Below are positions 13,045 through 18,188 of a DNA stretch of 37,560 nt, one piece after another. The notes under the pieces were generated by a model, which saw only the letters and a program-made list of their open reading frames with translations, was not told the origin of the DNA and ran no database searches. A program made the position numbers and the translations under genes. This DNA comes from Thomasclavelia sp. (lineage in GTDB: Bacteria; Bacillota_I; Bacilli_A; Erysipelotrichales; Coprobacillaceae), in contig JAQVWN010000016.1 in NCBI GenBank assembly GCA_028749475.1, positions 1-37,560 of the forward strand, given 5' to 3'. Numbering within the stretch: the stretch's first letter is position 1; each line of letters opens with the position of its first letter.

Positions 13045-13723
13045 AACCCATTTGCTCCTTAACCAAAACAATTTTTTCTTTATCAGAAGAAATAATCAAT
13101 AAGTTATCTCCAGCCATTAAACGAGTATCGCCTCGAGGAATTAAACTTTGTTCTCCTCGAAGAACACATCCAATTATTATTTCTTTAGGAAAATTCAATT
13201 CCCATAATCTTTTTCCAATAATAGGTGCATCATTTGATACTCGAAGTTCAACTATTTGAATTCTTCCTTCTTCGATTGGAATCATTTTAGTCATCTCATT
13301 CATGATGGCATGCTCTTCCATAATATTTGTAATCATGTTCATAGCACATACAACCCGGTCCACTCCCATTTCATAAAAGAATTCGGCTTTTTTCGGATCG
13401 TTTAATAAACAAACTGTCTTTTGAATATGAAATATTTGTTTTCCCATTTGACAGATTACTAAGTTGCATTCATCATTATCAGTCAAAACAATCATAACTT
13501 TATTTCTACTGGCATCTGCATCTTCTAAGATAAATTTTTTACTTCCATCACCATAGATAGTATTTAAGTTTTCTATTTCTGCTAGTTTTTCACATTTTTT
13601 TAAGTCTTTATTAATAGCAGTTACTTTATATCCTTTTTTTATTAAAGATTTAGCTAAAGATTGGGTTTTATGATAACCACCAACAATTAGTATTCGATCT
13701 TTTTCACGTTGTTTAAGAATCAT
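13031..13723 (-). CDS. TrkA/KtrA-type RCK protein with degenerate nucleotide site
   Basis: 231 residues from the ATG at 13723, which overlaps the previous stop (TAATG) and has GGGAG upstream. N-terminal RCK fold (DRILIVGGYHKTQSLAKSLI..., about 9-130) then an RCK_C domain (IVELRVSNDAPIIGKRLWEL ... GDTRLMAGDNLLIIS, about 160-225). The Rossmann loop reads GGYHKT rather than GxGxxG, so NAD(H)/ATP binding may be weak. It probably pairs with the 143-residue RCK_N protein to build the gating ring of the TrkH-like channel, like the two halves of a full-length E. coli TrkA. Confidence 0.88.
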   Translation of the reverse strand: MILKQREKDRILIVGGYHKTQSLAKSLIKKGYKVTAINKDLKKCEKLAEIENLNTIYGDGSKKFILEDADASRNKVMIVLTDNDECNLVICQMGKQIFHIQKTVCLLNDPKKAEFFYEMGVDRVVCAMNMITNIMEEHAIMNEMTKMIPIEEGRIQIVELRVSNDAPIIGKRLWELNFPKEIIIGCVLRGEQSLIPRGDTRLMAGDNLLIISSDKEKIVLVKEQMGYDEK

Positions 13724-14154
13724 TAATGAACACTCCCATCTTTTACATCTACTAAAACTTCTTGTTCTGATAAAATAGTTGGGCATATAGTTTCTATATT
13801 ATATTTTTCTACTAAAACACTTTTACATTCGTCGTAGATTCTAGCAACGACATAAGGAACGTTAAACATTTTTTTAGCTATTTGAGCTACAAAAATATTA
13901 ACATTGTCATTGTTAGTTACGACAATAACATTATCTGCTTCATTCATTTTGGCTTTTTTAAGTTTTTCAATATCAGTGGCATTGGCTGCCATGGTTATTC
14001 CACCATATGATTTAGATAGCTTCCTAAATGCAGAACCTTCTAAATCAATAACCATAACATCCTTTCCTTCTTCAGAAAAATGTGTAGCTAAAAATGATCC
14101 TAGTCCCCCACAGCCAACAATAATTGAATAACCATGTTTTTTACTGTCCATCAT
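13723..14154 (-). CDS. TrkA-type RCK_N-only protein
   Basis: 143 residues, a single Rossmann/RCK_N domain. The nucleotide loop IIVGCGGLGSFLA is intact and followed by an acidic strand end (VMVIDLE), which fits NAD(H) binding. There is no RCK_C domain; the protein ends SVH right where the next gene starts. Overlaps both neighbours by a few bases, so all are co-translated. Likely the nucleotide-sensing half of a two-gene RCK gating ring with the following protein. Confidence 0.9.
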   Translation of the reverse strand: MMDSKKHGYSIIVGCGGLGSFLATHFSEEGKDVMVIDLEGSAFRKLSKSYGGITMAANATDIEKLKKAKMNEADNVIVVTNNDNVNIFVAQIAKKMFNVPYVVARIYDECKSVLVEKYNIETICPTILSEQEVLVDVKDGSVH

Positions 14155-14549
14155 CTTTTCTTAAAACCTCTTAACTTTCTAACCATATGACCAACATGAT
14201 GATCATCATATTCAACATCAAATTGTGAATCCGATTTAGTTTTAACAATTTCTATACAATCATTCATACAATACGCTGGAATAAAACTATGGGAATTGAG
14301 TCCTCCGAACTTTTCAAGATTATATCTAGCAGGAGTATATGTAGGATCTAAAGCATTAGCTGCTCTAAAATGTTTCATTGCTAGAATATGTTCATGTTGT
14401 TTTTCTAACATAATTCCATAAAGATTATGTGGAACAGGTGAATGTGGATTACTTAACATTAAATCAACTATTTCTTGTTCACAATTATCGTATAAATTTT
14501 CACTTATTAAATGCTTAATATTATCTATTTCTTGTACTAATTCTTCCAT
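14151..14549 (-). CDS. TPR-like protein of the potassium operon
   Basis: 132 residues. A tetratricopeptide-like part at about 5-85 (PVPHNLYGIMLEKQHEHILAMKHFRAANALDPTYTPARYNL has the TPR spacing of Gly, Ala and Pro) is followed by a His- and Asp-rich tail (YDDHHVGHMVRKLRGFKKR). First gene of the operon TPR - RCK_N - RCK - TrkH, overlapping the next gene by 4 nt (ATGA). The RBS GAGGGAG is strong. Probably a scaffold or regulator of the channel, from context only. Confidence 0.8.
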   Translation of the reverse strand: MEELVQEIDNIKHLISENLYDNCEQEIVDLMLSNPHSPVPHNLYGIMLEKQHEHILAMKHFRAANALDPTYTPARYNLEKFGGLNSHSFIPAYCMNDCIEIVKTKSDSQFDVEYDDHHVGHMVRKLRGFKKR

Positions 14550-14572: not shown

Positions 14573-14578
14573 TATTAT
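14573..14578 (-). promoter_or_regulatory. Likely -10 box of the TPR-Trk operon
   Basis: TATAAT on the minus strand, about 25 bp upstream of the TPR start codon. At 17 bp spacing the -35 position reads AACTAT, far from TTGACA, as expected for an activator-dependent promoter. The direct repeats at 14590-14641 begin there. Confidence 0.6.
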
Positions 14579-14589
14579 ATTAAATATGA

Positions 14590-14641
14590 TGTGATATAGT
14601 TGTGAGGATTTTTGATTTTGTGTGAGAATTCTGTGAGGATT
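14590..14641 (-). promoter_or_regulatory. Two pairs of 11-bp direct repeats, likely KdpE operator
   Basis: On the plus strand TGTGATATAG (14590), TGTGAGGATT (14601), TGTGAGAATT (14621) and TGTGAGGATT (14632). Within each pair the start-to-start distance is 11 bp. OmpR/PhoB-family regulators bind direct repeats with this period, and the KdpE-like gene is adjacent. The repeats overlap and lie upstream of the weak -35 of the Trk operon. Confidence 0.65.
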
Positions 14642-14661
14642 TACTAATGAGTTATAAGTAC

Positions 14662-14704
14662 AAAAAAGCCTTTAATTATAGTAATTACGACTAAAATTAA
14701 AGGC
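14662..14704 (-). terminator. Intrinsic terminator after kdpE-like gene
   Basis: GCCTTTAATT (14668-14677) pairs with AATTAAAGGC (14695-14704); six T follow on the minus strand. It separates kdpDE from the Trk operon. Confidence 0.85.
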
Positions 14705-14715
14705 TAAATATACTT

Positions 14716-15411
14716 TTATTCAATTTCATTCATTCGATAACCAACACCTATTTCTGTATTAATATATTCAGGTTTAGCAGGGTTATCTTCTATCTTTCTT
14801 CTTAGGCCAGCCATTAACGCTCTTAAGGCTTGAGTATCATTACCATACCCACTTCCCCATAGTTCATGTATTATAACGTTATAAGTTAAGACCTTACCAA
14901 CATTTTTTAAGAATAAAACTAGTAGTTGATATTCTAGTGGCGAAAAGTGAACTTCTTTTTCTTTTAAAGTTATAATATGTTTATTAGTATCAGCTTTTAT
15001 TTTACCATTTTGGATAACACTTATATCCATTTTTTGATTATCACTATAATAATGACGAAGAGCAACTCTAATTCTCGCTAATAATTCAGTTGCTGAAAAA
15101 GGTTTTGTTAGATAGTCATCGGCTCCATCGTCTAACGCAATTACTTTTTCATTATCTTGATCACGGGCTGACACAATTATAATTGGCATTTGACTATATT
15201 CTCTTATCTTATGGAGAACAACCATTCCGTCGATATCAGGAAGACCAAGATCTAAAAGCATTAAATCAATGTTTTCTTCAACTTGACAATCAATAGCCGC
15301 CTGACCACTATCAGCTTCATATACTTGATAGTTTTCTTGTTTAAGTGTATATGTTATAAAGTTTCGTATTTGAACATCATCTTCAACAACTAAAATATTT
15401 TCTTTAAACAT
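14716..15411 (-). CDS. kdpE: KdpE-like OmpR-family response regulator
   Basis: 231 residues: receiver domain (1-120) with acidic pair Glu10-Asp11/Asp12, phosphoacceptor Asp54 (LLDLGLP), SARDQDNEK and the Lys of YLTKPF; then an OmpR/PhoB winged helix (about 130-230) ending VGYRMNEIE. High similarity in layout to KdpE. The kinase gene sits 18 nt upstream, so the pair forms one operon. There is no kdpFABC here; the downstream Trk-type operon is the obvious target, supported by 11-bp repeats at its promoter. Confidence 0.9.
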   Translation of the reverse strand: MFKENILVVEDDVQIRNFITYTLKQENYQVYEADSGQAAIDCQVEENIDLMLLDLGLPDIDGMVVLHKIREYSQMPIIIVSARDQDNEKVIALDDGADDYLTKPFSATELLARIRVALRHYYSDNQKMDISVIQNGKIKADTNKHIITLKEKEVHFSPLEYQLLVLFLKNVGKVLTYNVIIHELWGSGYGNDTQALRALMAGLRRKIEDNPAKPEYINTEIGVGYRMNEIE

Positions 15412-15429: not shown

Positions 15430-16914
15430 TTATATTTTGATAGGCAATTCAAAAGTAAACTCTGCTCCTTTGCCATCACTACGATTATTAGCATATATTT
15501 TCCCACCATGAGCTTTAATAACCGTTTCACAAATGGCTAGTCCTAAACCAACTCCCTTATTGGCATCAGCTGATTTATTACCACTAGTATAGAACATTTG
15601 GAAAATATTCTTTTCATCTTTTTTATCTATTCCAACACCTTCATCTTGAACACATACCTTTGCTATATCATTATCGTAACTAACTATAATAGTTATCTTA
15701 TCATTTACAGTAGTATGTTTGATGGCATTATCTAGTAGGTTATTGATAACTTGTTGAATCAGTCTAGCATCCATTGGAACAAGGACAAAGTCGTCAGGGA
15801 GTTTTACTTGAATCTCTCTACTAGGATAAATTCTTTCAGTATGAGTAATTGCTGCGGCAATTACTTCTTCTAAAGCTTCTGGCTCTTTTTTAACGTCCAT
15901 ATTACCATCTTTTAATCTTGTTAAACTTAAAATATTTTCAACCATTGAATGTAACCAATCAGCATCTTTATAAATACCTTGCATCATTTCATATCTTTGA
16001 TCATCATTATCAGTCATATCCATAATCATCTCAACTGTTCCCATAATACCAGTTAAAGGTGTTCTTAAATCATGAGAAATGGCTCTTAATAGATTTGCTC
16101 GATATCTTTCTCTAACTGCTGCTTCACGGTCTAGGATTCGTTCTTTAGTTACTAATATTCTATCTAATGCAATAGCAATATTTTCAATCATTGAATGCAG
16201 CAATCTTTTTTTATCTTCATCTAAACTTAACCATACTTCTTTTTTTAAATGAATAGCACCTAAAAGTTTATCGTTTACTCTAATAGGAAAATCAATATAT
16301 CCATTTTCTTCAGCATATTCAGTTCGAAGATTCTTTAGTAACAAATGAATATCAGCTACCTCACTACTATTTCGATATATAAATTCATGATTAAGCTTTT
16401 GAATAAGAATTTGTTTATTAGTTTCTTTAAAATAGGCAATTCCAGCATCATTATTAATCAAATTACAAATATTACTAAGTCCTATCTCTAGAATTTTTGA
16501 TGTATCTTCGGCATCTGAAAGTTGATTTGTAAGATTATATAAAGCTAAACTTTCGGCTTCTTTGTCTTCAGCTTTTTTAGTATACATTTTAGCTGTTGAA
16601 GTTAATGTACTAGTAACAATGGAAGTAATAGCCATAATTGCAAAAGTTATAAAATAATTAGGATCATAAACATTAAAGGTATGATATGGTGCCGTAAAAA
16701 AATAGTTAAATCCTAAGATTGAAAAGATAGAAGCGATAATTCCAAAAATATATCCATTCGTAATCCTGGCAGTTATTAAAACTGCTAAAATATAAATAAC
16801 TACTATATTTACTTCAGTAAAATGTAGACTTGTAAATAAAAAGCCTATTAATGAAGCTAAAATAAATATTAAAATAGTTTTACCCAAATCTATGAAATAC
16901 TCTTTCTTTATCAT
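15430..16914 (-). CDS. KdpD-like sensor kinase lacking the N-terminal KdpD/Usp domains
   Basis: 494 residues. Four hydrophobic helices at about 10-105 match the DUF4118 membrane unit of KdpD, followed by a GAF-like region (about 125-250), the H box with His281 (LLRAISHDLRTPLTGIMGT) and an ATPase domain (INNLLDNAIKHT, GVGIDKKDEKNIFQMF, GVGLGLAICE). Classical KdpD is about 900 residues with an N-terminal ATP-binding and Usp sensor half; that half is absent, so sensing must come from the membrane or GAF part. RBS GGGAGG is strong. Phosphorylates the KdpE-like protein. Confidence 0.9.
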   Translation of the reverse strand: MIKKEYFIDLGKTILIFILASLIGFLFTSLHFTEVNIVVIYILAVLITARITNGYIFGIIASIFSILGFNYFFTAPYHTFNVYDPNYFITFAIMAITSIVTSTLTSTAKMYTKKAEDKEAESLALYNLTNQLSDAEDTSKILEIGLSNICNLINNDAGIAYFKETNKQILIQKLNHEFIYRNSSEVADIHLLLKNLRTEYAEENGYIDFPIRVNDKLLGAIHLKKEVWLSLDEDKKRLLHSMIENIAIALDRILVTKERILDREAAVRERYRANLLRAISHDLRTPLTGIMGTVEMIMDMTDNDDQRYEMMQGIYKDADWLHSMVENILSLTRLKDGNMDVKKEPEALEEVIAAAITHTERIYPSREIQVKLPDDFVLVPMDARLIQQVINNLLDNAIKHTTVNDKITIIVSYDNDIAKVCVQDEGVGIDKKDEKNIFQMFYTSGNKSADANKGVGLGLAICETVIKAHGGKIYANNRSDGKGAEFTFELPIKI

Positions 16915-17019
16915 TACTAAAAGCCTCCCTGGCTACAAAACATATTATAACAAACGATTTTATTATAAGTCTTTTTTATTATCATACAATTAAAACATAT
17001 GATATTTCAAAGCCAAAAG

Positions 17020-17058
17020 AAAAGATCTATAACAATTCAACATTATTTTAGACCTTTT
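17020..17058. terminator. Weak terminator after Fe-S aldo/keto reductase
   Basis: AAAAGATCTA (17020-17029) pairs with TAGACCTTTT (17049-17058) with one G-U pair and a long loop. A T-run follows in both directions. It lies between the reductase stop (17079) and the kdpD-like promoter region. Confidence 0.5.
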
Positions 17059-17078
17059 TTTATATCTAATATAAATAA

Positions 17079-18188
17079 TTATTCCTCGTCAAATAATTTA
17101 GATACTTTCTTTAATAAATTAATTATTTCTAAATGTTGAGGACATACTCCTTCACATTGACCACATTCAATACAAGCTGATGCAGGATTTTGAGGAGCAG
17201 TAGAGTGCTTTGTATAGTAGTGTTTATAACGTGAACTTTTTCCATATAACATTTGACTATTATAGGCAGTAAATAATTCAGGTATTTCAACCTTCATAGG
17301 ACATCCTGGGACACAGTATCGACACTTGGTACAAGGAATTGTTGGTTGATTTAAAATCATATGGGTGATTTTATCAATGATTTTATATTCATCTTCATTC
17401 ATCTTTTTGAATTCACTCATTGTTTGAAGATTATCTTCTAATTGTTCCTGCGTAGACATTCCTGAAAGAACAGTCATTACTCCATCTAATGAAGCAATAT
17501 ACCTAAGAGCCCATGAAGCAATAGAGGCCCTTGGATTATAGTCTGTTAATTCACTTTCTATTTCTTTCGTAAAGCTAGCTAATGTTCCACCTTTAACAGG
17601 TTCCATAACAACAATAGGTACATTATGTTTTCTAGCAACTTCATAATTCTTTCGAGATTGAACAACTTCGTTGTTCCAATCTAAATAATTAAGTTGTAAT
17701 TGGACAAATTCTATTTCTGGATGAGCAGTTAATACTTCATCTAAGAGTTTAGAATCATCATGGAAAGAGAATCCAATATGTTTAATCTTTCCTTCTTCTT
17801 TCATTTTCTTTACGAATTCAAAACAGCCATATTTTTGATATGTTGGATAGTGACTTTCTTCAATACTATGCAATAGATAAAAATCAAAGTAATCTACTCC
17901 ACATAAAGATAATGATTCATTAAATATCCTTTCAACATCTTCTTGTTTGTTGATTTTCCATGCTGGAAGTTTATCAGCAAGAGTAAAAGATTCTCTAGGA
18001 TATTTATCTACTAATGTTTGTTTGATGGCAGCCTCACTACCAGCATAAGCATAAGCAGTATCAAAATATGTAAATCCTTTCTTCATAAAAGCATCTACCA
18101 TAGTTTGGACCTTATCAATAATGATATTCCCTTCTTCATCTTTTGGTAAACGCATTAAACCAAAACCTAATTTTGAATCTGATAACAT
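17079..18188 (-). CDS. Aldo/keto reductase with C-terminal 4Fe-4S domain
   Basis: 369 residues, COG1453 type. AKR barrel with Asp43 and Tyr48 (YFDTAYAYAG), Lys73 (ADKLPAW) and His107 (YLLHSIEE), then a C-terminal ferredoxin-like domain with two clusters of Cys: CTKCRYCVPGCPM and CIECGQCEGVCP. These Fe-S reductases are common in anaerobes; the clusters probably feed electrons to or from the barrel, but the substrate is not known. RBS AGGAGG. It has its own gap upstream (about 150 bp, an AACTTAAGTT palindrome at 18266-18275 and a TATAAT box) without the MerR-type dyad seen for the other two reductases. Confidence 0.92.
   Translation of the reverse strand: MLSDSKLGFGLMRLPKDEEGNIIIDKVQTMVDAFMKKGFTYFDTAYAYAGSEAAIKQTLVDKYPRESFTLADKLPAWKINKQEDVERIFNESLSLCGVDYFDFYLLHSIEESHYPTYQKYGCFEFVKKMKEEGKIKHIGFSFHDDSKLLDEVLTAHPEIEFVQLQLNYLDWNNEVVQSRKNYEVARKHNVPIVVMEPVKGGTLASFTKEIESELTDYNPRASIASWALRYIASLDGVMTVLSGMSTQEQLEDNLQTMSEFKKMNEDEYKIIDKITHMILNQPTIPCTKCRYCVPGCPMKVEIPELFTAYNSQMLYGKSSRYKHYYTKHSTAPQNPASACIECGQCEGVCPQHLEIINLLKKVSKLFDEE

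Follow-up and report, generated by a model that had tools for sequence, protein, structure and literature searches.

Analysis of the window (the whole 37,560-nucleotide stretch of Thomasclavelia sp. DNA) located kdpD-like, kdpE-like and Trk-operon genes, all of them on the minus strand. They are listed here in the direction of transcription.

15430-16914, minus strand: short KdpD-like sensor kinase with DUF4118, HisKA and HATPase domains
14716-15411, minus strand: KdpE-like response regulator of the OmpR/PhoB family, hereafter KdpE1, the proposed binder of the half-sites
14151-14549, minus strand: O132, first gene of the operon, a 132-aa conserved small protein with a TPR-like core
13723-14154, minus strand: TrkA-N domain subunit of 143 aa
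13031-13786, minus strand: subunit with TrkA-N and TrkA-C domains, ORF listed as 251 aa
11632-13071, minus strand: TrkH-family K+ uptake channel subunit (TIGR00933)

The operon order is O132, TrkA-N protein, TrkA-N/TrkA-C protein and TrkH; it contains the TrkH channel and the TrkA (RCK) subunits of a Trk K+ uptake system, with TrkA split over two genes. The true start of the TrkA-N/TrkA-C ORF is probably further in than listed. The TPR-like core of O132 was recognised from weak TPR matches of the homologue in L006 and from an alignment of 20 homologues. Its conserved core reads PHNLMGI...AMKHFRAAyALDPtY (window 14151-14549; L092 14310-14669), and no family covers the window copy. A second TrkH is encoded elsewhere in the genome (contig C13, 68672-69979).

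The region between the kdpE-like gene and O132 contains a terminator, four direct repeats and a -10 element, read here towards the Trk operon.

14660-14706, minus strand: intrinsic terminator downstream of the kdpE-like gene, with an 11-bp stem and a T-run
14632-14636, minus strand: half-site 1, TCACA, distal pair, kept in relatives
14621-14625, minus strand: half-site 2, TCACA, distal pair, 11 bp from half-site 1, kept in relatives
14601-14605, minus strand: half-site 3, TCACA, proximal pair, 20 bp from half-site 2, kept in relatives
14590-14594, minus strand: half-site 4, TCACA, proximal pair, 11 bp from half-site 3, kept in relatives; this pair overlaps the -35 position
14574-14579, minus strand: -10 element TATAAT, 10 nt after half-site 4, with no recognisable -35

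The preliminary description had read these repeats on the plus strand, as TGTGA words starting at 14590, 14601, 14621 and 14632 with an 11-bp period inside each pair. Positions and spacing were recovered in the sequence exactly as given, but the repeat proved longer than described, the full half-site having the consensus TTCTCACA(C). The promoter itself lies on the minus strand, where half-site starts are 11, 20 and 11 bp apart. A good -10 and a poor -35 covered by repeats had also been proposed, and both were borne out: TATAAT is perfect (14579-14574) and begins exactly 10 nt past the last half-site, while the best -35 has two of six matches (spacers 16-18) and is overlapped by the promoter-proximal pair. 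The distance of 75 bp reported for the kdpE-like gene likewise agrees with its stop at 14716 and the end of the described interval at 14641. The terminator hairpin between this gene and the promoter has a folding energy of -15.8 kcal/mol (z -4.85), and inspection by eye showed similar hairpins in the corresponding interval of several relatives. With so strong a terminator behind the kdpE-like gene the Trk operon requires its own promoter, barring read-through transcripts. A simple promoter scan did not list the array promoter, because its -35 is too poor, and it also missed the terminator, because of its loop.

When up to three mismatches were allowed, the four-part pattern had one match in the window, against 0.02 expected from shuffles, and a pattern search of the 1.84-Mb genome returned a single occurrence; the second TrkH on contig C13 has no such array. 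The two-copy pair alone, with one mismatch, was found three times in the window against 3.1 expected, which is not significant. Weight rests on the exact four-copy array and its conservation and not on a single pair, and the repeats are real, not chance. Apart from these four copies, a fifth half-site (TTTGA, 14611-14615, spacing 10/10) was considered and rejected because the 15-bp spacer is not conserved among relatives. Concerning autoregulation of kdpDE, no such repeats were seen in 16900-17090.

The regulator harbors a receiver domain (PF00072) and an OmpR-type winged helix (PF00486). Its best solved-structure match in the PDB is E. coli KdpE (4kny, 5e-52), its best curated model is that of KdpE (NF007820), and the base-contact residues R193, R200 and T215 of E. 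coli KdpE are conserved in it. The label KdpE used in the preliminary description holds for a relative of that protein and not for a strict orthologue, as the score of 204 bits lies below the equivalog cut-off of 325 and the regulator falls outside the kdpFABC-linked KdpE. Specifically, KdpE1 orthologues form one clade (support 97/92), whose sister clade (support 100/98) comprises the kdpFABC-linked regulators located beside full-length KdpD. No kdpA was detectable in the window genome (G000), which is 97.9% complete. The kinase carries the DUF4118 membrane domain, HisKA and HATPase characteristic of KdpD, and it aligns only to the C-terminal half of that protein (model positions 407-882 of 895); the N-terminal KdpD domain (PF02702) and the Usp domain are absent. 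In relatives, too, KdpE1 has a short kinase next to it, with about 480-560 aa where intact.

The preliminary description had proposed searching for the repeat before the same operon in related genomes. We searched 315 genomes of the order for the exact array, with the reversed pattern as control. The array was found in 13 genomes and the control in none of the 315. In 11 of these 13 the array lies directly before O132, and trk genes follow in nine. G016 and G025 have it before an O132 standing alone, without trk genes. O132 stays under the array there and may itself be an adaptor under K+ control. In a phylum sample of 392 genomes the array occurred only in four genomes, all from the family to which the window belongs and all among those that the order search had already yielded. 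A relaxed search, in which a middle spacing of 19 or 21 bp and TAACA-type half-sites were allowed, added G227, G228, G229, G232, G248, G180 (L006), G247 and, weakly, G218. Outside the order, it also added two Clostridia (L007 and L008).

The presence of the array follows that of the regulator. Setting the threshold for a KdpE1 orthologue at ≥55% identity to the window regulator yielded 18 genomes of the order, and the array precedes O132 in all 18, being weakest in G218. Disappearance of the repeats from relatives that keep the gene order, named beforehand as the outcome that would count against the proposal, was looked for and not encountered. Eight trk operons in genomes without KdpE1 (five of genus g21, together with G279, G169 and G281) lack the array. 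Fisher's exact test for co-occurrence gives 4e-6 with kinship ignored, the genomes being related and the counts not independent. One exception is G247, which has the array while KdpE1 was not detected; its operon is located at a contig end. The array is retained in G005, G021, G016, G025 and G027 too, where kdpE1 does not lie directly upstream of the operon; what the array follows is therefore the occurrence of KdpE1, not mere adjacency. The promoter geometry is fixed as well: a hexamer matching TATAAT in at least four of six positions lies at exactly +10 after the fourth half-site in 17 of 20 loci, and no -35 exceeds three of six matches in the 16 promoters measured. When twenty loci were cut into 600-bp tiles, those bearing the array scored 30 to 61 and the next best scored 4; the weak G218 array reaches 17 with the promoter region scored as one piece. 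The nearest relatives by protein, G218 (65%) and G180 (64%), have the weakest sites.

A few arrays were found in other settings. G098 (L119) and G105 (L120) carry the exact array by an ftsH-like gene, a different context, and on the reverse strand their TGTGA repeats point to a secreted-protein gene; these are possibly WalR-like sites. A second array of G139 (L200 2605-2651) has good promoter geometry with no recognisable gene behind it, and is possibly a decayed copy or belongs to a small RNA.

Relatives having both systems bear a different half-site at the kdpFABC promoter from that of the Trk array. In G005, G021, G016, G025, G027 and G248 this promoter (L090 8100-8360; L089; L092 5410-5470; L093; L094; L185) has four half-sites in the same geometry as the Trk array, with spacings of 11, 20 or 21, and 11 bp followed by 10 nt to the -10, and with the words TTAATA, TTAACA and TTTATA (TTAAYA/TTTATA). 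The G025 site is the same as that of G016, hence five sites were tested for six genomes, and at each of them the observed score was reached by 0 of 300 shuffles. Three sites are clear, with scores of 25.8-26.5 (four of the six genomes, counting G025), while those of G027 and G248 are marginal (23.8, where the shuffles reached at most 23.5 and 23.1). G005 possesses a contiguous potassium cluster (L090 5810-19448) in the order short kdpD-kdpE1-kdpABC-full kdpD-kdpE2-O132-trkA-trkA-trkH.

The recognition helix reads DTQALRALMAGLRR in KdpE1 and DVASLRVFMATLRK in the sister clade, the two differing at nearly fixed positions (DTQALRALMAGLRRK in KdpE1, DVASLRVFMATLRKK in the sister clade). Among KdpE1 proteins, the helix carries Val in place of Ala in exactly L006, L007 and L181, which are the loci with at least two non-C half-sites, their half-sites having drifted from TCACA to TAACA/TTACA. 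The association is 3/3 against 0/16 (p 0.001) and represents about two independent events. This co-change of helix and half-site is the strongest evidence from sequence that KdpE1 itself would read the array. The KdpE-type reading of the repeats given in the preliminary description gains good comparative support, since the array tracks the KdpE1 clade and co-changes with its recognition helix.

We consider it highly likely that the adjacent KdpE1 uses the 47-bp element as an activator site that drives the Trk operon, and the four repeats are very probably the landing pads of this neighbouring KdpE-like regulator. According to the proposed mechanism, the short KdpD-like kinase would phosphorylate KdpE1, probably at low K+ (or turgor), and two head-to-tail KdpE1 dimers would occupy both 11-bp direct-repeat pairs. 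The proximal pair would cover the missing -35 and recruit RNA polymerase, the promoter would be opened from the -10 located 10 nt downstream, and this would yield O132-trkA(N)-trkA(N+C)-trkH, the operon for a K+ uptake system of the Trk type. PhoB-type activators overlap a missing -35 in this way, their proximal site replacing the element and recruiting polymerase. What we infer from the comparison of genomes is that KdpE1 binds, that it is phosphorylated, that it activates and does not repress, and that K+ is the signal. That a KdpE paralogue with its own half-site would drive the Trk operon, in a genome without detectable kdpA, is well supported.

It is unlikely that another OmpR/PhoB-family regulator (WalR/YycF-, PhoP- or PhoB-like) uses the array and that the kdpE neighbourhood is incidental. 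The WalR box is TGTWAH-N5-TGTWAH, which the TGTGA-N6-TGTGA of the opposite strand resembles, although the conserved G of TGTGA misfits the A/T of WalR. The window genome encodes eight matches to the regulator, the G098 and G105 arrays lie in another context, and 11-bp direct repeats are common to all these regulators (PMC4415409). However, the array follows the KdpE1 clade and not a universal regulator, being absent at the eight Trk operons mentioned above; half-site changes track the KdpE1 helix, and the single array of the window genome is unlike a global regulator. Binding by KdpE1 with repression of the operon as its outcome is quite improbable too. A protein bound over the -35 could obstruct polymerase, and E. 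coli KdpD without its N-terminal half keeps the response to K+ limitation and fails to shut off completely at high K+ (PMC2714519), so that the response here may follow a curve unlike the textbook one, and the regulatory logic could differ as well. Against repression, none of the promoters measured has a -35, as is usual where transcription depends on an activator, the -10 stands at a fixed distance of 10 nt, and kdpFABC, of which KdpE is the activator, shares the geometry in six relatives. A chance or low-complexity origin in an AT-rich intergenic region is extremely improbable and already refuted by conservation: a single pair with one mismatch is not above chance in the window, whereas the four-copy array exceeds expectation, its reversed pattern is nowhere in the order sample and the array is kept across diverged genera. 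Finally, TGTGA is the CRP half-site word, but a CRP/FNR-type site has a negligible likelihood, as CRP sites are inverted (TGTGA-N6-TCACA) and all four copies here run in the same direction.

Activation by KdpE1 can be set beside several known systems. The E. coli KdpD/KdpE-kdpFABC system is alike in the families of regulator and kinase, the 11-bp period of the direct repeats, the contact residues and K+ uptake as the target. The E. coli KdpE site consists of two 6-bp repeats, TTTATA/TTTACA, with 5 bp between them (PMC3264566). One such pair is described there, against two pairs with half-site TTCTCACA here and four half-sites at the kdpFABC promoters of relatives, whose words are close to the E. 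coli half-sites. The action of E. coli KdpE is regarded as essentially confined to kdp (PMC7657598). A review treats Trk as constitutive, with kdpFABC as the target that KdpDE induces (PMC3610689), whereas here the target would be trkA/trkH, the kinase lacks the N-terminal half and kdpA was not detected. The PHO box likewise has 11-nt direct repeats bound in tandem, head to tail (PMC4415409), like the same-orientation half-sites about 11 bp apart described here, and differs in sequence, regulator and physiology. In M. tuberculosis, deletion of KdpDE was reported to change both expression and activity of Trk as well as Kdp (PMC8358298), an influence on Trk in a different phylum and with a full Kdp system present; the parts of that report consulted describe no operator for direct Trk control. 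T. maritima TM1088A/B is a two-subunit TrkA (PMC4380455), somewhat similar to the two trkA genes of the window; that work concerns the gating ring of the transporter and not its regulation, and the likeness lies in the gene split. No report of a KdpE-type operator before a trk operon was found in the open-access literature, and a KdpDE-type system with a defined operator appears to be dedicated to Trk across Erysipelotrichales-type gut bacteria. It is likely that a KdpE paralogue and a KdpD without its N-terminal regulatory half became dedicated to Trk, the kdpFABC geometry being kept and the half-site (TTAAYA/TTTATA to TTCTCACA) changing with the helix. If so, one cell could run two KdpDE systems in parallel that do not cross-talk, and genomes lacking kdpFABC would be left with the Trk branch alone. 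Paralogues with matched promoter geometry and different half-sites and helices offer a clean natural experiment on the insulation of two-component regulators after duplication.
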